Shown: positions 44,891 through 55,469 of the stretch, in pieces
Numbering within the stretch: the first letter of the stretch is position 1
How the letters are laid out: each line of letters opens with the position of its first letter
Assembly: GCA_903845055.1 (NCBI GenBank)
Contig: CAIMWF010000085.1
Span: 1 to 55,755, forward strand
DNA length: 55,755 bases
DNA from: an uncultured Bacteroidales bacterium
GTDB lineage: Bacteria; Bacteroidota; Bacteroidia; Bacteroidales; FEN-979
Reading direction: 5' to 3'
Notes under the pieces: generated by a model
The model's database searches: none
Seen by the model: only the letters and a program-made list of their open reading frames with translations
What the model was told of the DNA's origin: nothing
Made by a program: the position numbers and the translations under genes

Positions 44891-45322
44891 TTAATTTGCT
44901 TTAATGTCATGATGTACAATGATTTCCACATTGCCTTTCAAAAGCGCCCATACCGGGCACAGTGACGATTCGGCAGTACGGATGGCCTTTTCAAGGTCGG
45001 CAAGGGTGACATCGGGTGAAACAAGGGTGAATGACAGATCGATCCGTGAAAAGGTGTATGGCGGTGCCTCCTGCCTGATCCCGCAGGCATCGATGGTGAG
45101 CCCATTCACGGTTTTATGCATTTTCCCGAGCAATACCGTTACAGCCGTGGCACTGCAACCAGAGAGGCTCACCAGGAGCATTTCCAGGCCGGTATAGCCC
45201 TCCCCGTCTCCCTGCGGAGGAAAGTAGTCCATGAAAATGGCAGGGTTGTTCCTGGCAGTTGAGGAGAAGCGGATTTTGTCGTTTACCAGGGTCGTCCTGG
45301 TGGTGGGATTGATGATGGACAT
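44891..45322 (-). CDS. OsmC family protein
   Basis: The start is the ATG at 45322 (MSIINPTTRTT); the longer frame begins with TTG. 143 residues. The two redox cysteines of the family appear in LVSLSGCSATAV and AESSLCPVWALLKG. OsmC/Ohr-type proteins reduce organic hydroperoxides through these thiols, or have unclear roles in the YhfA-like branch; the sequence looks closer to general OsmC than to Ohr. It is cytoplasmic, and is transcribed alone from a -7 box at 45423-45430. Confidence 0.88.
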   Translation of the reverse strand: MSIINPTTRTTLVNDKIRFSSTARNNPAIFMDYFPPQGDGEGYTGLEMLLVSLSGCSATAVTVLLGKMHKTVNGLTIDACGIRQEAPPYTFSRIDLSFTLVSPDVTLADLEKAIRTAESSLCPVWALLKGNVEIIVHHDIKAN

Positions 45323-45422
45323 GGCAGTGGGTTTATGAAGTAAATTGATGACCCGGAGGTTCAAAAATATTACCTTTCAGTGAACGGTTGATTTTTTTTG
45401 TGAATCAAATAACAACAAGCCG

Positions 45423-45600: not shown

Positions 45601-45666
45601 GTGTGAATGATGCAAGATTATTCCAAAGTTGTGTAACACACCTGGGCAGCATTTGCCCCAACTTTG
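45601..45666 (+). promoter_or_regulatory. Composite promoter element, copy C (upstream of the small barrel gene)
   Basis: GTGTGAATGATGCAA (45601-45615), 15 variable bases, GTGTAACA (45631-45638) and, starting 21 bases after GTGTAAC, the -7-like box CAACTTTG (45659-45666). The same parts at the same spacing occur at 48946-49011 and 54437-54502 on the other strand. It lacks a TTTG at -33, which suggests activator dependence. The ATG at 45693 lies 26 bases after the box. Confidence 0.8.
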
Positions 45667-45692
45667 CATATGACGAAGTTCAGACAAAAAAG

Positions 45693-46265
45693 ATGAAAAC
45701 TATTATAGCATTTATTATCCTCATTACTCTAACGGCCCTTCCTGCAACCAACGCATACAGCGGCAACCCTGGGGATGATCCCGCAGCCAAGGGCAGCGCG
45801 ATCTTCAGGTTCGGGTTCGGTGCCGGAATCCCGTTTTACGGCAGCAGTGGCTTCGGTCCGGCCGCGATTTACAATTACGATCAAAATGCCTGGCAGGCAG
45901 GCCCCGGGACCATCAGTCTAGGTGGACAAATAGGATCCTCCTTTTTCCACCGGGATTTTGCCTTTGAAGGCCATCAGTACATTTCTAAATGGTCGAATGT
46001 CAGTGTTGTATTCAGGAGTGCCTGGCACTATGGCTGGAATGTTCCGGGACTGGACACCTATGCCGGGCTTGGAGCAGGTGCCATGGTAACCATGTATAAC
46101 AACGATGGGTACGATTCAGGTAAAAAAGCTACGCATTATGCATTCCTGCCGGTCGCATTTGCAGGGGTCTCCTATTTCTTCAACCATGTTGTCGGGGTCA
46201 ATGCCGAATGCGGGTACAACTTTACTTATGTTTCGGCAGGTCTCACTTTCAGGTTGACGAAATAA
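45693..46265 (+). CDS. Small outer-membrane beta-barrel protein, 190 aa
   Basis: The start is the ATG at 45693; the longer frame begins with GTG inside the composite promoter. The signal peptide (KTIIAFIILITLTALPATNA) is followed by amphipathic strands rich in G, Y and F (AIFRFGFGAGIPFYG, SVVFRSAWHYGW, DTYAGLGAGAMVTMY, FLPVAFAGVSYFF, CGYNFTYVSAGLTFRLTK), typical of an eight-stranded barrel. No specific function is recognised. It is one of three genes behind the shared composite promoter, so it is probably induced with the nearby oxidoreductases. The coiled-coil lipoprotein gene follows after 138 bases. Confidence 0.72.
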   Translation: MKTIIAFIILITLTALPATNAYSGNPGDDPAAKGSAIFRFGFGAGIPFYGSSGFGPAAIYNYDQNAWQAGPGTISLGGQIGSSFFHRDFAFEGHQYISKWSNVSVVFRSAWHYGWNVPGLDTYAGLGAGAMVTMYNNDGYDSGKKATHYAFLPVAFAGVSYFFNHVVGVNAECGYNFTYVSAGLTFRLTK

Positions 46266-46403
46266 CTTTCCCGGGATCTTTTCAATCAAACACTCTTTGC
46301 TGTAATATGGTCATCACGACCCCGACGGGACGGCCAAAAACAGCCTGGGGACCCGGCTGTTTTCATCATCACTATTTAAACACAATCACTAAAAACCATT
46401 TAA

Positions 46404-46853
46404 ATGAGAAAAGGAATTTTTACCCTGGCCGCAACGGTATGCATAGTGGGAACCATGATATGCAGTTGCCAGTCACAGGCCGACAAAGTCAGGAATGCTG
46501 AGGACAAACTTCAGGATGCCAACGAGAAGCAGGAAGCGGCCGTCAGGAACCTCGACCAGGCTTTAAGAGATTCGATCCAGCATTTCAGGAAAGAATCGGA
46601 AGAAAGCCTCAATGCAAATGAAAGGAGCATCGAGGAGTACAGGGTCAAAATAGCCGCGGAAAAATCCGGGACGAGGGCGCGCGATGAACGCAGACTGGCC
46701 TCGCTGGAGCAGCAGAACAGCGACATGCGGAAAAACCTCGAGGCATTCAACGATACCCAGCGTGACAAGTGGGATTCATTCAGACTCAGGTTTAAACATG
46801 ATATGGAAGATCACGCCAGGGCCATGAGGGATTTCTGGACGGGTGGCCGATAG
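46404..46853 (+). CDS. Coiled-coil lipoprotein, 149 aa
   Basis: The signal peptide ends in a lipobox-like MICSC (Cys20 or Cys22). The rest is almost entirely charged helix (heptad-like from about 28 to 135, for example VRNAEDKLQDANEKQEAAV and RLASLEQQNSDMRKNLEAF), so an envelope coiled coil is likely. It is unrelated to any family I can name. It lies on the same strand as the small barrel and may be carried on its transcript. It converges with the NADH:flavin oxidoreductase gene, with only 20 bases between stops. Confidence 0.75.
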   Translation: MRKGIFTLAATVCIVGTMICSCQSQADKVRNAEDKLQDANEKQEAAVRNLDQALRDSIQHFRKESEESLNANERSIEEYRVKIAAEKSGTRARDERRLASLEQQNSDMRKNLEAFNDTQRDKWDSFRLRFKHDMEDHARAMRDFWTGGR

Positions 46854-46873
46854 TCCCTCATGACCTGACCCGG

Positions 46874-48859
46874 CTACAATTCAATTGCAAGCAGGTAGGC
46901 GTCCCAAATCGCACTCATGATGTTGCGGACAGATTTGGCATCCCCAATGTTGTAAATAATTTTACCTGGATTCATGGAATTTCCGGTGAACTGATCACGG
47001 GGATGATAACCCACGGCGATTACCACGGTATCTGCTTTAATTTCCTGGCTGCCTGCGGGTGTTTCAACGACAACGGAAAGATCATTCACCGATCCTATAT
47101 GTGATTGGAGCAACACATCGATCTTGTTGAAAACGAGCAGGTCTTTCAGCATGTCATAATTGGCAAAACACATGAATTGGCCGCCATCCAGAATCTCCGG
47201 CTTTGATTCAACGATTGTCACCTTTTTGCCCATCATCCGCAGCCAGAGGGCTGTTTCACAACCCACCAGTCCGCCCCCTGCCATTACGATGTTCTCCCCG
47301 GCAAGGCTGGGATTCAAAAGCACTTCATCCGCTGTAAAGACATGATTTTTATTGCCGAAATCGGGTTTCACCGGGGAAGACCCGGTAGCCATGATCACAA
47401 TATCAGCACCCGAATCGTCAATCATTTGCTGGTCGGCGTCGCAGCTGAGCCTGATCTCCACCGGCAACTTATAAAGCTGTACCTTGTACCATTTAAGCAA
47501 CGCACGGTCATCTTTTTTAAAATCCGGCACACTCCCGGGGATGAGGTGACCACCAAGCATTTCGCTCTTTTCGGCCAGTGTGACCTTGTGCCCGCGGATG
47601 GCGCAGACCCGTGCCGCCTCCATCCCGGCTAGTCCCCCGCCGATAATCAATACATTTTTACTTACCGGTGCTTTCGTAATGGCAAGCGATTTTTCTCTTC
47701 CGCAGGATGGATTTGCCGCGCATGACAGCGGTAAACCGTGTGCCAGCCGGTCGAGGCAACCCTGGTGACAGGAGAGGCACGGGCGGATGTCCGCCAGGTT
47801 GCCGGTCCTGATTTTTTCAGGAAGGTAGGGATCGGCCAGCAGGGGCCGGCCCAGCCCGATGATATCACAGCAGGTCCCGAGGGCTTCACAGGCCATTTCA
47901 GGGTCATCCATCCTGCCGGCAAGGATCACCGGGACCGTAACATGTTGTTTAAGAACTTTCCCAAACTCCCGGTACATGCCTTTTTCAAAATACATGGGCG
48001 GATGGTTCCAGTACCAGGCATCATAGGTTCCGGCATCCACGTTCAGCATGTCGTAGCCGGCTTCCACCAGTATTTTGGCTGCTTCGATGCCCTCGGCGAT
48101 ATCTTTCCCCTGTTCAACGAATTGTTCACCCGGCAAGGCCCCGTGTCGCAGGCTTTTTATAAAACTTTTCAAACTGTAGCGCAGCGAAACGGGAAAATCC
48201 CGGCCGCAGGCTTCCTTGATGCCTTTAACGATATCGGTGGTGATTTTCAGCCTGCCCTGCAAATCCCTGCCATATTCGTCGGTTCTTTTGTTGTAGAACG
48301 CAATGGCAAACTGGTCAAGCAGGTAACCTTCATGAACGGCATGAATTTCAACGCCGTCAAATCCCGAATCCTTGGCCACCACGGCACAGGTGATAAATGA
48401 TGCGACCAGGGCCTTTATCTCCGCGATGGTCATGGCCTTGTGCGTTATGGAAGGATCCCACCGGTTTTCCTGGTCCGACGGGGCAATTGCACGGGTCATA
48501 AGGCGGGGAATGGCTGCCCTGCCGAACCCGCCCGTGAGCTGGAGTAAAATTTTGGTGCCAAGGGCATGAATTCTTTCGTTCATCGGTGTACATGACTTCG
48601 CGAACATCAGCGGCATATAGGATGCGCAGGGCATGAGCAATGACGGCATTTCGTTATAGTTGACATTGGTAATCCCCGTGACGATCAATCCTGTGCCGCC
48701 TTTCGCCCGTTCAATATAGTATTCCTGCGCCTCTTCTGAAAAGCCGCCGCAGGGATCGGCCATGGCCACCATGCCCAGCGGGGCCATGGATATGCGGTTT
48801 TTAAGGGTGAGTTTGCCCACGGTAAGGGGTTCGAAGAGTTTCTGATAGCTGCCTGACAT
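46874..48859 (-). CDS. NADH:flavin oxidoreductase, old yellow enzyme / 2,4-dienoyl-CoA reductase type
   Basis: A 661-residue, two-part enzyme of the FadH/BaiCD group. An FMN TIM barrel (1 to about 340; LTLKNRISMAPLGMVAM, GFDGVEIHAVHEGYLLDQF, VILAGRMDDPE) is followed by a 4Fe-4S site (CLSCHQGCLD, later LSCAANPSCGRE), then FAD and NAD(P) Rossmann folds (VLIIGGGLAGMEAARVCAIRGHKVTL; NIVMAGGGLVGCETALWL). Members reduce activated C=C bonds such as dienoyl-CoA, enoates or bile acids; the substrate here is unknown. It is monocistronic, behind composite promoter copy A. Confidence 0.9.
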   Translation of the reverse strand: MSGSYQKLFEPLTVGKLTLKNRISMAPLGMVAMADPCGGFSEEAQEYYIERAKGGTGLIVTGITNVNYNEMPSLLMPCASYMPLMFAKSCTPMNERIHALGTKILLQLTGGFGRAAIPRLMTRAIAPSDQENRWDPSITHKAMTIAEIKALVASFITCAVVAKDSGFDGVEIHAVHEGYLLDQFAIAFYNKRTDEYGRDLQGRLKITTDIVKGIKEACGRDFPVSLRYSLKSFIKSLRHGALPGEQFVEQGKDIAEGIEAAKILVEAGYDMLNVDAGTYDAWYWNHPPMYFEKGMYREFGKVLKQHVTVPVILAGRMDDPEMACEALGTCCDIIGLGRPLLADPYLPEKIRTGNLADIRPCLSCHQGCLDRLAHGLPLSCAANPSCGREKSLAITKAPVSKNVLIIGGGLAGMEAARVCAIRGHKVTLAEKSEMLGGHLIPGSVPDFKKDDRALLKWYKVQLYKLPVEIRLSCDADQQMIDDSGADIVIMATGSSPVKPDFGNKNHVFTADEVLLNPSLAGENIVMAGGGLVGCETALWLRMMGKKVTIVESKPEILDGGQFMCFANYDMLKDLLVFNKIDVLLQSHIGSVNDLSVVVETPAGSQEIKADTVVIAVGYHPRDQFTGNSMNPGKIIYNIGDAKSVRNIMSAIWDAYLLAIEL

Positions 48860-48945
48860 GTTGTTTTTATTTTAGATGTGTGAATGGTTGCGGACAAGAA
48901 GGGGAGGAGTTGTTTTTCACGGGATGAAGGATCCCCGGCATGCTG

Positions 48946-49011
48946 CAAAGATGAGGCTGACCGCTGTCGCGATTGTTACACAATAAATGAAAAGGTTTGC
49001 AATATTCACAC
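48946..49011 (-). promoter_or_regulatory. Composite promoter element, copy A (upstream of the NADH:flavin oxidoreductase)
   Basis: On the minus strand: GTGTGAATATTGCAA (from 49011), 15 variable bases, GTGTAACA (the TGTAAC part ends at 48975), 21 bases, and CATCTTTG (48953-48946). The parts and distances are identical to copies B and C. The ATG is at 48859, giving a leader of about 80 bases. Confidence 0.8.
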
Positions 49012-49041
49012 GTGGGCGGGATAACCTGCAGCGGCCAGGAA

Positions 49042-50853
49042 CTAATCGAACTGCCCGGTATAGAGGTCGTAATATCTTCCTTTCAGTTTCAGCAAATCGG
49101 AATGACTGCCCCTTTCCACAATTTCGCCATGTTCAAGGACCATGATTTCATCGGCGTTGTGTACCGTGGATAAACGGTGGGCGATCACGAAACTGGTCCT
49201 GCCCGCCATCAGGTGGTCCATTCCCTTTTGTATGATCTGTTCCGTGCGGGTGTCGATCGAGCTGGTTGCCTCATCCATGATCATCATGGAAGGGTTGGCG
49301 ATGGTGGCCCGTGAAATGTTCAGCAACTGTCTTTGTCCCTGGCTCAGGTTGCCGCCGTCGTTTTCAAGCCTGGTCTGGTAACCCTTCGGCAGCCGCTGGA
49401 TAAATGAATGGGCGCCGGCCAGGGTGGAGGCGGCGATGACCTCCTCATCGCTCGCTTCGAGCCGCCCGTACCGGATATTTTCCATGACCGTGGCGGTAAA
49501 AAGATGCGTGTCCTGCAGCACGATGGCTACCGACCTGCGCAAACTGCTGCGTTGAAGGTTCCTGATATCCGCCCCGTCGATTGTGATGCTCCCCGATTGT
49601 ACATCATAAAATCGTGAAAGCAGGTTGAGGATGGTTGTCTTGCCGGCACCGGTTGAACCGACGAGGGCAATCTTCTGTCCCTGTTTCACACTGAAGGATA
49701 TCTTTTTCAGGATCACTGTATCCGGATCATAACCGAACACCACTTCATTGAATGCCACATTGCCCCTGGTATTGGTCAACGCGGTTGCGCCGGGGAGATC
49801 CGCTTTTTCCGGGATCTCATCCATGACCTGGAAAATGCGTTCCGCGCCCGCAAGTGCTTCCTGGAGACTGTTGTACTGGTTTGAAATTTCATTGACCGGG
49901 CGTCCGAACTGGCGGGTATACTGAAGGAATGCGGCGAGCCCGCCCAGGTCGAGCCCGCTGAAAATGGCCAGGAGCCCCCCGACTGTGGCGGTGATGGCAA
50001 AATTGATGGTGTTCAGGTTCTGCATCACGGGCATCATGATCCCCGAAAACAGCTGGGCCCCGGTGGCTTTGTCGCGCAGATCATAGTTTATTTTTTCAAA
50101 ATTCCCCGCAGCGGTCTGCTCATAACAGAAAACGGTCACAACTTTTTGACCCGTGATCATCTCCTCCACGTAACCGTTCATGGTCCCCATCGCATTCTGC
50201 TGGTTTGTGAAAAACATCCTGCTCTTCTTAATGATCCGGCCCGCTACCCAGAACATCAGCGAAACAACCGCCAGGGTCACCATGGTCAGCAACGGGCTGA
50301 TGCAAAGCATCAGGATAAAAATGCCGGTTACCGATATGGTACTGATAAATAATTGTAAAACGCTGGTGTTGAGCGAATCGCTGATGGTATCCACATCATT
50401 CGTGAAACGGCTCATCAGCTCCCCGTGGCTGTGACTGTCGAAATATTTCAGGGGCAGTGCCTGGAGTTTGGCGAAAAGCTCGGCCCGGATGATAAAAACG
50501 GTCTTCTGCGCGACCCTTATCATCAGCCGGTTTTGAAAAATGGCCGCAATGGAACCGGAGATGTATATCCCTGCAAGCAGGCCGATCATCTCAACCAGCC
50601 CCCGGATATTGTGCGGGATGATATAATTGTTGATGATTGGCCGGAGCAGGTAGGCCCCGGTCATGGTACTCCCGGTATTGATCAGCATCAGGATGAAAAT
50701 GATGATGAGCATGAACCGCTGCCTTTTCAGGTAACTCCATAACCGCAGGATGACCCTTCCCGGTTTTTTCGGTTTCTCATCGGATATCCGGCCCCGCCTG
50801 CCCGGGAGAGCAGCGGGCATCAGCCTGGTTTTGTTGCCGGCTGCCGTGTTCAT
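49042..50853 (-). CDS. ABC exporter half-transporter with the catalytic site (partner of the next gene)
   Basis: A 603-residue protein: an N-terminal six-helix transmembrane domain (about 45-330) and an ATP-binding domain with Walker A GSTGAGKTT (399-407), signature LSQGQ (503-507), Walker B MMIMDEAT with the catalytic Glu528, and H-loop AHRLSTV. It overlaps the preceding half-transporter gene by 4 bases (ATGA-type coupling), the standard layout for heterodimeric exporters of the BmrCD / TM287-288 kind. Substrates of this group are drugs, lipids or peptides; here unknown. It is the last gene of the probable MDR-VIT1-ABC-ABC transcript. Confidence 0.93.
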   Translation of the reverse strand: MNTAAGNKTRLMPAALPGRRGRISDEKPKKPGRVILRLWSYLKRQRFMLIIIFILMLINTGSTMTGAYLLRPIINNYIIPHNIRGLVEMIGLLAGIYISGSIAAIFQNRLMIRVAQKTVFIIRAELFAKLQALPLKYFDSHSHGELMSRFTNDVDTISDSLNTSVLQLFISTISVTGIFILMLCISPLLTMVTLAVVSLMFWVAGRIIKKSRMFFTNQQNAMGTMNGYVEEMITGQKVVTVFCYEQTAAGNFEKINYDLRDKATGAQLFSGIMMPVMQNLNTINFAITATVGGLLAIFSGLDLGGLAAFLQYTRQFGRPVNEISNQYNSLQEALAGAERIFQVMDEIPEKADLPGATALTNTRGNVAFNEVVFGYDPDTVILKKISFSVKQGQKIALVGSTGAGKTTILNLLSRFYDVQSGSITIDGADIRNLQRSSLRRSVAIVLQDTHLFTATVMENIRYGRLEASDEEVIAASTLAGAHSFIQRLPKGYQTRLENDGGNLSQGQRQLLNISRATIANPSMMIMDEATSSIDTRTEQIIQKGMDHLMAGRTSFVIAHRLSTVHNADEIMVLEHGEIVERGSHSDLLKLKGRYYDLYTGQFD

Positions 50854-52589
50854 CCCGCGGTCCCTTTCTGCAACTGCTGTGAAAGATATATTTCCCTGTA
50901 TATCATGCAGTTCTTCATCAGCTCATCATGCCTGCCAATACCTGCAATTTCACCATTGTCGACCAGGATGATCTTATCGGCGGCCTGTATCGAACTGATC
51001 CGCTGTGCAATAATAAGGACCGTTGTCCCGGCGAGATGGTTTCTGAATGACTGCCGCATCGCTGCTTCCGTGGCAACATCCACGGCACTTGTGCTGTCGT
51101 CGAGAATCAAAATGACCGGCCTGCCCAGGATGGCCCTGGCAATGCAGATCCGTTGCTTCTGTCCTCCCGAAAGATTCACACCGCCCTGTCCCAGCACCGT
51201 ATCATATTGCCGGGGCAGGGTCATGATGAAATCGTGTGCCTGCGCATCCCTGGAGGCAGCAATGATCTCCTTTTCCGTGGCTGTTACATTTCCCCATTTC
51301 AGGTTGTCGCGGATGGAGCCTGAAAAAAGTTCATTCTGCTGAATGACCAGGTTGGCCGCTGAACGCAGATTTTTTACCGGGTAGTCCCGGACATCCCTGT
51401 CGTCGACCAGGACCCGGCCAAGGGTAACATCATACAACCGCGGGATCAGCTGCACCAGCGTGCTTTTAGACGACCCCGTTGCACCGATAATTGCGGCAGT
51501 TTCACCGGGAAGGACTGTAAAGCTGATGTTTCGCAATACAAATTCACTGCCGTCGGCATGGTATTTGAAAAAGACCTTTTCGAATTCAATTTTCCCCCGG
51601 GTCACATGGAGGTCCTCATTTACTGCAGCCGGTGAATCGATAATATCAACCTTCGCCTTCAGCACCTCGGTAGTGCGTTGAACCGAGGCTCCCGCCCTCG
51701 AAAACGACATGATGGTCATCGAAAGCATCATCAGCGACATCAATATCTGGGTGATGTAGGTAATGAACGACATCAGCTGCCCCACCTGGAAACTGCCGGA
51801 AATGATTTTATTTCCCCCGAACCAGACGATGGCAACTATCGAAAGGTTCATTACAAGCTGCATCACCGGCATGATCAATACCACCGTTCCCGAAGCCTTT
51901 ACCGACATTTCCCGGAGTTCGTCATTGGTACAGGCAAATTTTTTCACTTCAAAATCTTCCCGTACAAACGATTTGACAACCCGAACGTTGACAAGGTTTT
52001 CCTGGATCACTACATTAACCTTGTCGAGCTTTTTCTGCACCTTTTCAAAAAAGGGCAGTCCTTTACGCAGGATCAGGTAAATGCTCACTCCCAGCACCGG
52101 GATGGCAACACCGATGATGGATGCGAGACCTGCATTGATCCTTACGGCAATGATGACCGCGAACAACAGCATGAGCGGCGCCCTGATCAGCAGGCGCAGC
52201 GACATCATGGTCACATCCTGGAGGATATTGATGTCGTTGGTCATCCGGGTGACCAGGGAGGCTGAACTCAGCCTGTCGAGATTTGAAAATGAGAATTTAA
52301 GGATCTTATTGTAGAGACCTTTCCGCAGTTCGGCGGCAAACCCGACCGATGCATGCGACGAGTAATAGATGTTCCCGATGTTGGCGGTGATGGCGACCAG
52401 CGACAACCCCAGCATGATGCCGCCTGTATGCAGGATATACGACATGCTTTTTTGGCCAACCCCGTTGTCAACAATTTTCGACATGAGTTCGGGCTGGACA
52501 ATTTCACAGAGTACATCAAGGATCACCAGTGCAGGCGCAAGAATCAGGGCTTTGCGGTATTTTCCGAAGAATGGGAGATATTGTCTCAT
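50850..52589 (-). CDS. ABC exporter half-transporter with degenerate ATP site
   Basis: A 579-residue protein with a six-helix transmembrane domain and an ATP-binding domain: Walker A GATGSSKST (369-377), canonical signature LSGGQ (473-477), but Walker B VILILDDST with Asp498 where the catalytic Glu should be. The partner carries the Glu and an LSQGQ signature. The two deviations fall in the same composite site, which is the textbook pattern of heterodimeric ABC exporters with one degenerate and one consensus site. The gene lies 2 bases after the VIT1-like gene. Confidence 0.93.
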   Translation of the reverse strand: MRQYLPFFGKYRKALILAPALVILDVLCEIVQPELMSKIVDNGVGQKSMSYILHTGGIMLGLSLVAITANIGNIYYSSHASVGFAAELRKGLYNKILKFSFSNLDRLSSASLVTRMTNDINILQDVTMMSLRLLIRAPLMLLFAVIIAVRINAGLASIIGVAIPVLGVSIYLILRKGLPFFEKVQKKLDKVNVVIQENLVNVRVVKSFVREDFEVKKFACTNDELREMSVKASGTVVLIMPVMQLVMNLSIVAIVWFGGNKIISGSFQVGQLMSFITYITQILMSLMMLSMTIMSFSRAGASVQRTTEVLKAKVDIIDSPAAVNEDLHVTRGKIEFEKVFFKYHADGSEFVLRNISFTVLPGETAAIIGATGSSKSTLVQLIPRLYDVTLGRVLVDDRDVRDYPVKNLRSAANLVIQQNELFSGSIRDNLKWGNVTATEKEIIAASRDAQAHDFIMTLPRQYDTVLGQGGVNLSGGQKQRICIARAILGRPVILILDDSTSAVDVATEAAMRQSFRNHLAGTTVLIIAQRISSIQAADKIILVDNGEIAGIGRHDELMKNCMIYREIYLSQQLQKGTAG

Positions 52590-52591
52590 GA

Positions 52592-53272
52592 TTAACTGAC
52601 CGCCTTGGCCAGGAGGAACGCTGCGGCGGCGGCCACGATGCCCGTGATCGCCACCTTGACCGTTCCTTTCAGCAGGGGTCTGTCGGTCATTTTGCTTTTA
52701 TAGTAACCAAACCCTACCAGGGCCAGGATCGTGACAATGCAGGAAAAGATAAACCCGGTTTTACTGTTAAGGGTGACAATGTAGGGGAACAGGGGGATAA
52801 ATCCTCCAACGAGGTATGAAATGGCAATGGTGGCAGCACTGATCGCGGCACGGTTTTTCTCCGGTTTTTCCAGCATTAGCTCCAGCTTCATCATCAGGTC
52901 GACCCAGTGGTTCTTGTCTTTGCTGACCTGGAGGGCAACCTGTTTGCTCAATGTTTTTTCAACCCCCATGGCCATGAAGATATCCTCCACCTCCCTCAGT
53001 TCCTGCTCCGGAACACTTTCAACTTCGTGGTATTCACGCTGAAGTTCCGAATCGTAATGTTCAACCTCCGACTGCCCGGCCAGGAAACCTCCAAGCCCCA
53101 TTGAGATACACCCGGCGGTTATTTCCGCCAGTCCCGAAACGATGATCAGGTGGTTCGTGTTGAGCACCCCCGACAGCCCGGCCGTAAGGGCAAAGGGCAC
53201 GGTAAGGCCGTCGGACATCCCGATGATGATGTCCTTGACCAGGTTGGTGTTTTTATTGTGCTTTTCGCCCAT
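52592..53272 (-). CDS. VIT1/CCC1-family transporter (Fe/Mn type)
   Basis: A 226-residue membrane protein. The family N-terminus is clear (KDIIIGMSDGLTVPFALTAGLSG), and the cytoplasmic metal-binding helical part contains HYDSELQREYHEVESVPEQELREVEDI and KLELMLEKPEKN. Five transmembrane helices in total, the last three at the C-terminus. Relatives move Fe2+ or Mn2+ out of the cytoplasm or into a store. It has 2 bases to the downstream ABC gene and 48 bases from the MDR oxidoreductase stop, so it probably shares their transcript. Confidence 0.88.
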   Translation of the reverse strand: MGEKHNKNTNLVKDIIIGMSDGLTVPFALTAGLSGVLNTNHLIIVSGLAEITAGCISMGLGGFLAGQSEVEHYDSELQREYHEVESVPEQELREVEDIFMAMGVEKTLSKQVALQVSKDKNHWVDLMMKLELMLEKPEKNRAAISAATIAISYLVGGFIPLFPYIVTLNSKTGFIFSCIVTILALVGFGYYKSKMTDRPLLKGTVKVAITGIVAAAAAFLLAKAVS

Positions 53273-53320
53273 ACTAGCCTATGTTACCGCCCGGGAAAGG
53301 GTGTCTTTGTTCAGCCATCG

Positions 53321-54325
53321 TCAGTCCTCCCGGACCTTAACAATCATTTTACCACTGTTTTTCCCGTCAAATAGGTCGAGAAATGCCTGGGGAATGTTTT
53401 CAAACCCCTCTACGATTGTTTCGGCATGGGTGAGTTTCCCCTCCTTGAGCCACAATGCCAGTTGTTTCATAGCAGCGGGGAATTTTGCCGAAAAATCATT
53501 TACAATGAACCCCCGCATGGTTGCACTTTTTGTCAGCAAGATCGGCTGGATGCGGGGTGCAAGGCGTATCCTCGTATCGTTATACAGCGAAATGGCGCCG
53601 CAAACCGGCAGCCGTGCATGTTTGTTGATGTTGGCGAGAACTGCATCCGATATCTCACCACCCACATTGTCGAAATAGATATCCACCCCGTCGGGGCAGG
53701 CCATCCTGACTGCCTCACGCAAGTCGTGCGTGGTTTTGTAATTGATGGCTTCATCAAACCCGAATTTCGATTTCAACACTGCCGACTTTTCATCCGAGCC
53801 CGTGATACCGACCACCCTGCAGCCCTTGATCCTGCCGATCTGGCCGACAACGCTGCCAACAGCTCCGGCCGCGCCCGACACGACAAGGGTTTCTCCCGGT
53901 TTCGGGGCGCCTATTTCGGTCAGGCCAAGGTAAGCTGTAAGTCCCGTCATCCCCAAAAGCCCGAGGTAGGTCGATAGCGGAGTGACCGATGCATCCACCT
54001 TGTTTAACCCGGAACCGTCGGAGAGCTGGAATTCCTTCCATTCGAGCATACCGGAAACAAAATCACCCTTTTTAAACAGGTCGTTCTTGGAATCCGTTAC
54101 CTCGGCGATGATCCCCGACTGGATGGGCTTCCCCAGTTCAAAGGGTGGAATGTATGACTTTGTATCATTCATCCGGCCGCGCAGGTAGGGATCAACCGAA
54201 ACATAGAGGGTCTTTAAAAGGATATGGCCGGCTTCGGGAACTGGGATGGCTGCGCTGGAAAACATGAAATCGTCCAGGGTCGGTTTCCCGACGGGTCTTT
54301 TATTGAACAGGATTGATTTATTCAT
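53321..54325 (-). CDS. NADP-dependent zinc-less MDR oxidoreductase (CurA / leukotriene-B4-dehydrogenase-like)
   Basis: A 334-residue medium-chain reductase with no zinc-binding cysteines: YVSVDPYLRGRMNDTKSY near the N-terminus, the coenzyme motif VSGAAGAVGSVVGQIGR, then GCRVVGITGSDEK, YFDNVGGEISDAVL and the C-terminal QAFLDLFDGKNSGKMIVKV. These features match the 2-alkenal/curcumin reductase (CurA, PTGR) branch, which reduces alpha,beta-unsaturated carbonyls with NADPH. It lies behind composite promoter copy B and is the probable first gene of an operon with VIT1 and the ABC pair. Confidence 0.92.
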   Translation of the reverse strand: MNKSILFNKRPVGKPTLDDFMFSSAAIPVPEAGHILLKTLYVSVDPYLRGRMNDTKSYIPPFELGKPIQSGIIAEVTDSKNDLFKKGDFVSGMLEWKEFQLSDGSGLNKVDASVTPLSTYLGLLGMTGLTAYLGLTEIGAPKPGETLVVSGAAGAVGSVVGQIGRIKGCRVVGITGSDEKSAVLKSKFGFDEAINYKTTHDLREAVRMACPDGVDIYFDNVGGEISDAVLANINKHARLPVCGAISLYNDTRIRLAPRIQPILLTKSATMRGFIVNDFSAKFPAAMKQLALWLKEGKLTHAETIVEGFENIPQAFLDLFDGKNSGKMIVKVRED

Positions 54326-54436
54326 TTACTGAATTTATTTGAGTTAAACGTTGTTTTTAGACGGGCGTTGCCATTGAAGAGAAATAGAATATGTAAAGAT
54401 TACAGAAATGGGTCTGGCTTTAAAATGATTTTGAAA

Positions 54437-54502
54437 CAAATTTCACCCAAATCGGAGAAGCCGGTGTTACATAACTTTATAAATTAGTTGCAACATTCAC
54501 AC
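54437..54502 (-). promoter_or_regulatory. Composite promoter element, copy B (upstream of the MDR oxidoreductase)
   Basis: On the minus strand: GTGTGAATGTTGCAA (from 54502), 15 variable bases, ATGTAACA (the TGTAAC part ends at 54466), 21 bases, and GAAATTTG (54444-54437). Spacing is identical to copies A and C. The ATG is at 54325. It lies between the HxlR stop and the MDR start. Confidence 0.8.
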
Positions 54503-54530: not shown

Positions 54531-54893
54531 CTACCGGTCGCCTAAAACATTTTTCCTAAGCTGCATGCCCCATTTGATCATCGGGTCAAGCACCTGGTTC
54601 AGCGACCTGCCCGACTGGGTCAGTTCGTATTCCACAGTAACGGGAATGGTATCAAAAACAGTTCGTTTCAGGATACCGCTGGATTCCAGGTCCTTCAACT
54701 CCTTCGAAAGCATGCGCGGTGTTATTTTGGGAATGTCACGTTCGAGTTCTCGGAATCGTTTCTTTCCGTATAGCAAAGACCCGATGATGGGCAACTTCCA
54801 CTTCCCGCTGATCACATTGAGCGTATCATTGATGGCCAGAACAAACTGTCCTGAACAGCTTTTTACCTTTTCAAACTCCGATAATTCTACCAT
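54531..54893 (-). CDS. HxlR-family winged-helix transcriptional regulator
   Basis: 120 residues with the classic HxlR core: a Cys near the N-terminus (KSCSGQ), IKGKW-like VISGKWKLPIIGSL, GKKRFRELERDIPKITPRMLSKELKDLESSG (recognition helix region) and the wing VEYELTQSGRSL. Many members respond to aldehydes, quinones or disulfide stress through that N-terminal Cys and control adjacent oxidoreductases. It is divergent to the DoxX-like gene across a palindromic operator candidate and just upstream of the MDR gene on the same strand. Confidence 0.93.
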   Translation of the reverse strand: MVELSEFEKVKSCSGQFVLAINDTLNVISGKWKLPIIGSLLYGKKRFRELERDIPKITPRMLSKELKDLESSGILKRTVFDTIPVTVEYELTQSGRSLNQVLDPMIKWGMQLRKNVLGDR

Positions 54894-54937
54894 AAAGCCT
54901 GATTTAATTGTTGATATACTAAAGGATAGTGCTATAC

Positions 54938-54958
54938 ATTAGTATACTGGTTACTAAT
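54938..54958. promoter_or_regulatory. Candidate HxlR operator (ATTAGTA-N7-TACTAAT)
   Basis: A perfect 7-base inverted repeat lies in the divergent hxlR/doxX region; a second half-site TATACTA at 54915-54921 pairs with TAGTATA at 54940-54946. It sits over the expected -33 region of the doxX promoter (-7 box at 54975), consistent with repression, and 45-65 bases from the hxlR start. Confidence 0.6.
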
Positions 54959-54974
54959 CCATAGCAAATATATG

Positions 54975-55103: not shown

Positions 55104-55469
55104 ATGAAAAAAGACAAAATTATTTTCTGGACAACCACCGGGATCGTTTCCGCGATGATGGTTTTCAGTGGTTACAGCTACCTGACCAATGATGCGATGA
55201 AGGATGGTTTTATACACCTGGGATTTCCCGTCTATTTCAGGATAGAACTGGCTATTGCCAAACTGCTGGGTGCGGTAGTGCTCATCCTCCCGATGATTCC
55301 GGCACGCATCAAGGATTTTGCATACACCGGCTTTGCCATCACCTTCACCTCGGCATTCATCGCCCACCAGTCGAGCGGCGACGCAATCTCGATAGCCATC
55401 ATGCCGTTATTATTCCTTGGAATCCTGGCGGTATCCTATATCTACTATCATAAAACCATCAAGGTATAA
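55104..55469 (+). CDS. DoxX-like family membrane protein
   Basis: 121 residues, four transmembrane helices (IIFWTTTGIVSAMMVFSGYSYL, KLLGAVVLILPMI, DFAYTGFAITFTSAFIAH, AIMPLLFLGILAVSYIYY). The sequence HLGFPVYFRIELAIAKLLGAV is typical of the DoxX-like group (as in DoxX_2/DUF proteins induced by HxlR or MarR regulators). Biochemical function is uncertain; thiosulfate:quinone or redox roles are known only for distant members. It is transcribed divergently from the HxlR gene, its probable regulator, and ends at a strong terminator. Confidence 0.87.
   Translation: MKKDKIIFWTTTGIVSAMMVFSGYSYLTNDAMKDGFIHLGFPVYFRIELAIAKLLGAVVLILPMIPARIKDFAYTGFAITFTSAFIAHQSSGDAISIAIMPLLFLGILAVSYIYYHKTIKV

Follow-up and report, generated by a model that had tools for sequence, protein, structure and literature searches.

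Class II activators of the AraC/XylS family place their proximal half-site over the -35 region, and AraC-type dimers use direct repeats with a spacing of 21 bp, as established for AraC. Proteins of this type often contain a cupin domain themselves, and the half-site sequences of AraC, RhaS and MelR are unlike the AATnRTGTAAC described here. MarA, SoxS and Rob are small AraC-type activators of a scattered stress and envelope regulon, and MarA and SoxS act as monomers on single boxes of ~20 bp. In a 55,755-nucleotide stretch of DNA from an uncultured Bacteroidales bacterium (contig CAIMWF010000085.1, the whole of which is called the window below), three genes or gene runs are preceded by the same composite promoter element. 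Comparison of genomes suggests, with a probability that we put at roughly 0.83, that the activator of these promoters is a protein combining an HMA-fold domain with an AraC-type DNA-binding domain (HMA-AraC), and that it would switch an envelope or general stress regulon.

Anatomy of the composite element

The full pattern reads GTGTGAATnnTGYAA-N15-RTGTAACA, with a -7 box at a fixed distance. Its 38-base part has exactly three matches in the window at up to 3 mismatches, all three with 0 mismatches and at the coordinates given in the initial annotation of this DNA, and it is absent from 100 dinucleotide shuffles of the window. The word GTGTGAATNNTGCAA by itself, also at up to 3 mismatches in the window, occurs 23 times against 18.2 expected, which is not above chance, and the signal therefore lies in the composite. 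The spacings recorded in that annotation are exact to the base in all three copies, with 37 bases to the end of TGTAAC, 21 further bases and then nAnnTTTG. A lone GTGTGAATGGTTGC word lies at 48878-48891 (plus strand), between the start of the ene-reductase gene and its element, on the opposite strand and without a second half or a -7 box.

A profile was built from 227 distinct sites, 141 of them from family and order genomes and 86 from named loci, with some genomes represented in both. Its consensus is AATGTGTGAATnATGTAACTTATT..n..A[AG]TTRTGTAACACTT, followed after ~18 bases by nACCTTTGt. The pattern by which sites were selected fixes the columns within GTGTGAAT, TGYAA and RTGTAACA, while the -7 box, AAT at -3 to -1, A at position 9, TTATT and A[AG]TT lie outside it. 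In the -7 box the A is present in 94% of sites, the three Ts of TTT in 98, 100 and 87%, the G in 78% and the first T in 23%; the resulting nAccTTTG agrees with the Bacteroidota housekeeping box TAnnTTTG save for the first T. The TTTG or TTG expected at -33 of a housekeeping promoter is absent and RTGTAACA occupies its position. The loss of both features, first noticed in the window copies, thus holds across the profile as well. Positions were assigned by placing the box at -12 to -5, where TAnnTTTG sits in Flavobacterium psychrophilum according to PMC9723704; on that basis RTGTAACA falls at -40 to -33, the spot expected for the -33 motif. This geometry points to a class II activator.

When the profile is compared with itself the agreement is maximal at a shift of 21 bp, with AATnRTGTAAC at positions 5-15 and 26-36 (9.7 bits, versus 3.4 bits at 30 bp and 1.8 bits at 9 bp), and the mean identity between the two halves is 0.72 versus 0.31 for permuted columns. 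Over the 227 sites the element thus has the tandem direct half-sites, about 21 bp apart, of dimeric AraC/XylS members. It had been proposed that GTGTGAAT and RTGTAACA are half-sites 30 bp apart, and we rejected that spacing on the strength of the profile, though the window copies alone favour neither (6, 6 and 7 of 11 identical bases for the 21-bp repeat, 5, 5 and 4 of 8 for the 30-bp repeat).

The fixed spacing to the downstream box could also be explained if the element were the promoter of an alternative, ECF-type sigma factor with TGTAAC, at about -39 to -34, as its -35 element; TGTAAC contains AAC, which is common in ECF -35 elements. We consider this very improbable, since conservation extends upstream to position -3 with the same word repeated 21 bp away, and the downstream box, A..TTTG, belongs to the housekeeping -7 type and is not the CGT box that PMC9723704 reports for ECF-like promoters of F. 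psychrophilum.

Occurrence of the element and of a candidate activator

The source genome (3.95 Mb in 175 contigs) contains 19 sites at up to 3 mismatches, and the reversed-pattern control gave 0. Extending the pattern to take in the -7 box at its fixed spacing again yields 19: one is new, on contig C120, and the other 18 were already in the first set; three of those 18 have an imperfect -7 box (TTTA or TTAG), and the site on contig C116 fails the longer pattern. That weaker site (G000:C116:26515-26552, L026) has no matching -7 box, and the gene behind it matches NCBIfam NF052320 (Cbp1 family) above cut-off. Relatives were searched at up to 2 mismatches. The pattern was found in 28 of 43 genomes of the family (control matches, 0), in 79 of 344 genomes of an order sample, with a maximum of 26 copies each (reversed control, one match in each of 6 genomes), and in 30 of 345 genomes of a phylum sample (control, 0), 16 of these 30 being single-copy genomes in which chance matches are possible. 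Overall, sites occur in over a hundred genomes.

Within 79 named loci around the candidate regulator gene (L134-L212; L133, whose contig is as long as G016:C56, was left out) there are 163 sites with a matrix score above 12. Copies are not scattered away from gene starts: 158 of the 163 lie outside open reading frames (ORFs) of at least 110 amino acids, versus 21% of random positions, and the predicted transcription start falls within 60 bases of a same-strand ORF start for 44% of sites versus 3% at random. The initial annotation's view that each copy points into its gene, and that the copies are activator-dependent composite promoters of a regulon, is supported by these data. Its description of the regulon as small is not. 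By sequence, the three window promoters belong to a predicted regulon of about 20 promoters in this genome, which recurs in many other Bacteroidota. Many similar copies clustered in islands could also be the mark of a mobile repeat spread through transposition or recombination. However, the spaced words are conserved and the intervening bases variable, a profile that contradicts a mobile repeat, and the sites are intergenic, directed into genes and present across many orders of the phylum, making such an origin scarcely credible.

The candidate activator in the source genome is an AraC-type protein of ~186 residues encoded at G000:C24:16907-17461, the homologue of an AraC-type protein of ~190 residues found in the site islands. 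The gene ends within an element, the TGA of GTGTGAAT being its stop codon. Only three HTH_18 proteins occur in the source genome. In the order sample a close homologue was defined by an E-value up to 1e-57, with no genome between 1e-60 and 4e-56, and was present in 53 of 61 genomes with at least two sites versus 13 of the 283 others. Among the 35 families holding both kinds of genome, at least two sites were found in 42 of 53 carriers versus 5 of 66 non-carriers, and 0 of 100,000 within-family permutations gave as strong an association. In the window's own family, the protein is encoded in 19 of the 20 genomes that have at least 3 sites and in 4 of the 23 that have fewer. At the level of the genus, the 11 genomes with 3 or more sites are all carriers and the 8 with fewer are all counted as non-carriers, one of these (G011) having a fragment at a contig edge. 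For the phylum sample, in which carriers were called at an E-value up to 1e-60, 11 of 14 genomes with two or more sites carry a close homologue.

The same association is visible at the level of the locus. A matrix whose training set was confined to 126 sites from the window's own family finds a site in 67 of the 79 named loci, and its reversed form in 0. The site lies just behind the regulator gene in 39 loci and just in front of it in 10 more, and in 19 the element begins right after the last codon, with its TGA as the stop codon, as in the source genome. In a tree of 100 rows (96 of them different, drawn from every second named locus and from other loci passing a protein motif filter), a site is present in the locus for 81 of 91 rows of the regulator clade (support 100/99) versus 0 of 9 rows of the paralogue clade; restricted to the ~3.5 kb loci L074-L132, the figure is 44 of 49 regulator-clade rows. 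These tree counts are to be read with the knowledge that the matrix was partly trained on the same loci, that some loci give two rows, that the bootstrap is unsettled and that two long-branch rows are of unsure place. The paralogue itself, an HMA-AraC protein of 35-38% identity, was rejected as the binder because it occurs in site-less genomes and because none of its 9 rows in the tree, which represent 8 different proteins, has a site. Receiver proteins were likewise rejected as DNA binders, the two scanned examples being receiver-only and without a DNA-binding domain. Because the presence of sites tracks the HMA-AraC protein so closely, this protein is very likely the switch.

Several observations weigh against this assignment. 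The order-sample cut for a close homologue was set after the list had been seen, and 8 of 66 order carriers have no site at up to 2 mismatches. Among phylum-sample genomes, 3 of the 14 with two or more sites lack a close homologue, and 22 of 33 carriers have fewer than two sites. Five genomes (G088, G191, G148, G343 and G029) have 3 or more sites and no close homologue; a profile search recovered a diverged homologue in G343, whose locus has a site, placed the best match of G148 in the paralogue clade, and found no homologue in G088, G191, G006 or G029. The stricter matrix finds no site in 12 of the 79 named loci, many of which are flavobacterial.

Genomes that have sites without a close HMA-AraC homologue would be expected if some other factor bound the element and the HMA-AraC protein were a fellow member of the islands. 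The HxlR gene that adjoins the third window element (54531-54893) is one such candidate, an unlisted factor another, and in 5 genomes the AraC gene itself belongs to site-driven operons, a position that a passenger might occupy. HxlR was rejected as the regulator, as no HxlR protein occurs among the genes scanned beside the source genome's other sites; the sequence upstream of the HxlR gene also differs from the element. The AraC link persists within families, in named genomes and against the protein's own paralogue clade, and the direct repeat has the 21-bp period at which AraC-type dimers bind; among DNA-binding families, the comparison across genomes covered the HMA-AraC proteins only. We regard a different regulator as unlikely.

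The structure predicted for the HMA-AraC protein agrees with the proposed role. An AlphaFold2 model from a 61-row alignment (pLDDT 89.5) contains a beta-alpha-beta-beta-alpha-beta domain (residues 2-62), a linker helix and an AraC-type domain (92-184). The latter is the C-terminal domain of ~100 residues with two helix-turn-helix motifs typical of AraC/XylS; HTH_18 is matched above cut-off in the source genome and at 3.2e-16 in a homologue (G016), and in Foldseek the domain matches the DNA-binding domains of MarA, SoxS and AraC. The N-terminal domain matches the metal chaperones Atx1 and GolB (prob 1.00, E 0.05-0.15) and has the HMA fold, with 4a47, 4y2i and 2xmv at prob 1.00, TM-scores by target of 0.70-0.73 and E-values of 0.05-0.08. 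A sequence search of solved structures returned AraC-type domains only, and no NCBIfam model matched the protein above cut-off. By its domains the protein is a member of the AraC superfamily with a modelled HMA-fold N-terminus.

The metal-binding motif of HMA domains is MxCxxC. In the regulator clade the corresponding sequence is MVSxRC in 82 of 91 rows and MVCxRC in 9, and with the cysteine pair reduced to MVSxRC, metal binding is therefore not claimed. The paralogue rows keep MxCxxC in 8 of 9, and one paralogue matches CopZ weakly, below cut-off. A sister clade (L088-L091 and L093-L095) retains both cysteines (MVCIRC) and has the element in 7 of 7 rows; loss of the first cysteine is therefore not needed for the link to the sites.

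If the HMA-AraC protein is the activator, each element would be the operator and core promoter for a class II activator of AraC type. The protein may bind the two direct AATnRTGTAAC half-sites as a dimer, 21 bp or two helical turns apart, with the upstream ATGTGTG aiding binding. The downstream half would cover about -40 to -33, a region that offers the housekeeping sigma factor no -33 motif, and the bound activator could recruit polymerase to the -7 box without its first T. About 20 promoters would be turned on in this way, serving genes for lipid transport of the envelope, for proteins of the outer membrane, for stress proteins and for reductases that detoxify. In relatives the activator may also switch on the operon that encodes it, in which a PAS hybrid histidine kinase is joined by a receiver-only protein.

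Genes behind the elements

The features of the window are collected in Table 1. ORFs of the cluster to which the 190-residue barrel protein belongs lie in site-driven operons of 4 genomes, and orthologues of the lipoprotein-like protein, which has a weak match below cut-off to the sll1863 stress family, are the first gene behind a site in 4 genomes. An OsmC-family gene (44891-45364, minus strand) is divergent from the barrel gene, and no element is directed at it, though OsmC would suit a stress theme.

Table 1. Coordinates of the three elements in the window and of the genes beside them
Feature	Position	Strand	Remarks
Putative activator element, barrel gene	45601-45638	+	Half-sites AATnRTGTAAC-like at 45606-45616 and 45627-45637
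-7 box CAACTTTG, barrel gene	45659-45666	+	Spacing same as in the 227-site profile
Putative activator element, ene-reductase gene	48974-49011	-	Half-sites 48996-49006 and 48975-48985
-7 box CATCTTTG, ene-reductase gene	48946-48953	-	
Putative activator element, MDR-VIT1-ABC-ABC gene run	54465-54502	-	Half-sites 54487-54497 and 54466-54476
-7 box GAAATTTG, MDR-VIT1-ABC-ABC run	54437-54444	-	
Small protein, 190 amino acids, first gene past element	45693-46265	+	Barrel according to the initial annotation; no Pfam match
Small lipoprotein-like protein	46404-46853	+	Possibly co-transcribed with the barrel gene, 138 bases between
FMN ene-reductase, OYE family, 661 amino acids	46874-48859	-	Pfam PF00724 and PF07992
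MDR reductase	53321-54325	-	Named by Pfam; nearest NCBIfam models curcumin reductase and leukotriene B4 12-hydroxydehydrogenase (below cut-offs)
VIT1-family protein, second gene of MDR run	52592-53272	-	In site-driven operons of 3 genomes
ABC exporter subunit, third gene of MDR run	50850-52589	-	Probable operon member, judged from gaps
ABC exporter subunit, fourth gene of MDR run	49042-50853	-	Probable operon member, judged from gaps

The element is conserved in front of orthologous genes. Among the 43 family genomes, MDR orthologues (E up to 1e-80) occur in 6, every one a carrier of the regulator; in 4 of them the element immediately precedes the gene, and in the other 2 it lies 1-1.3 kb upstream and points the same way. 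Ene-reductase orthologues (E up to 1e-150) occur in 3, again all carriers, with the element in front in 2, one of them G013; the third (G023) has no element within 1.5 kb and sits after an MDR gene on the same strand. The nearest NCBIfam models of the ene-reductase, both below cut-off, are bilirubin reductase and BaiCD. Beside the third element lies an HxlR-family regulator (54531-54960, minus strand; gene 54531-54893) that has a TAGTATACTGGTTACTA sequence on its upstream side. A DoxX-like gene (55104-55469) runs divergently from it, and the whole looks like a separate HxlR unit.

Nine genomes were read in islands, each cluster being named after a single example. With an error of up to 260 bases tolerated in the called ORF starts, 93 of 98 sites are followed within 600 bases by an ORF on the same strand. 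In the source genome the elements precede PAP2 + DUF748, DUF4421, PAP2, BON + MCRA (oleate hydratase) + YceI, HlyD + MacB/FtsX + ABC ATPase, MlaE + ABC ATPase + MlaD + AI-2E, a cupin (below cut-off), DJ-1, a triple BON protein, PepSY-like and BrkB proteins, and an alpha/beta hydrolase + NDH-2 (YceI, MlaD and AI-2E being named by ORF cluster only), along with several unnamed proteins and the barrel, ene-reductase and MDR-VIT1-ABC-ABC units of the window. Sites without a clear first gene include C24:28030, C120 and C128:6753. The recurrent members are ice-binding proteins (7 of the nine genomes), DUF4421, MlaE, ABC ATPase and hybrid kinase (6), PAP2, DUF6600, OmpA, HMA-AraC and receiver (5), the window's barrel and lipoprotein (4), and MDR, VIT1, BON, YceI, Usp and DnaJ/MerR_2 (3). 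In the named loci there are 146 first genes behind sites. Leaving aside 3 duplicates, 12 regulator genes and one further gene from each of L156 and L177, 129 were scanned, cut at 330 residues; they include 15 Ice_binding, 10 Cupin_2, 5 Band_7 and 7 AraC (HTH_18) matches, and 9 and 8 matches to outer-membrane barrel families.

A response to reactive carbonyls or quinones, suggested at first for the window's genes, was rejected as too narrow a theme: with MDR orthologues in 6 and ene-reductase orthologues in 3 of the 43 family genomes, the ene-reductases of the window are accessory members, and the recurrent members belong to envelope and general stress functions. The target list suggests an envelope or general stress response.

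The commonest neighbour of the regulator is a stand-alone cupin-like protein of ~116 residues, present in 31 of the 79 named loci (within L135-L211), 15 times just behind the regulator gene and 7 times just in front; the match of the scanned example to EutQ narrowly misses the cut-off. In 24 of the 79 loci the regulator has a PAS hybrid kinase nearby, 19 times just behind the gene, and a receiver-only protein also occurs in 24. All three are candidate sensors. One possibility, an idea that we hold only tentatively, is that this regulon is the general stress response so far missing from the Bacteroidota. It would then span the phylum and be run by a "split" AraC system, with a degenerate one-cysteine HMA domain in place of the cupin and with the cupin-like protein, PAS hybrid histidine kinase and receiver as sensors in trans.

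Relation to known regulatory systems

The literature searched, whose coverage is partial (most subscription journals and bioRxiv preprints lie outside it), contains no account of the element or its regulator, in keeping with the initial annotation's "apparently undescribed", and no paper on an HMA-AraC fusion or on a master regulator of the Bacteroidota general stress response. A concrete protein, a base-exact operator and a promoter geometry can now be named for a candidate stress regulon of this phylum, with targets read in nine genomes and in the 79 named loci, among them culturable Emticicia, Arcicella, Dyadobacter, Terrimonas and Algoriphagus. Envelope lipid-transport operons (MlaEFD, DUF748, PAP2), ice-binding proteins and many unnamed proteins are thereby placed under one candidate switch.

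The transcription start site map of F. psychrophilum (PMC9723704) shares with these promoters the -7 box TAnnTTTG at -12 to -5, and its main text has 0 occurrences of "arac" or "tgtaa" at the start of a word. The sigma-B, EcfG/PhyR and RpoS regulons are similar in their breadth, in the presence of Usp, BON, YceI, DJ-1, DnaJ, detoxification and envelope genes, and in their tie to a sensor kinase. Unlike them, the regulon described here would depend on an activator at housekeeping-type promoters and not on an alternative sigma factor, as judged from the sequence of the -7 box. HMA proteins such as Atx1, CopZ and GolB share the fold of residues 2-62, but here MVSxRC stands in place of MxCxxC and the domain is fused to an AraC domain. 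Like the class II activators AraC (at araI1-I2), RhaS and MelR, the protein has the two-helix-turn-helix domain (PF12833), and its putative half-sites are 21 bp apart with the proximal half over -35; it differs in having an HMA fold rather than a cupin at its N-terminus and in the Bacteroidota -7 box. With the enterobacterial MarA/SoxS/Rob regulon it shares a single small AraC-type protein and a scattered stress and envelope regulon, while the two tandem half-sites, the targets and the phylum are different. By analogy, the system may work like a MarA/SoxS-style small activator that uses AraC-style tandem half-sites.

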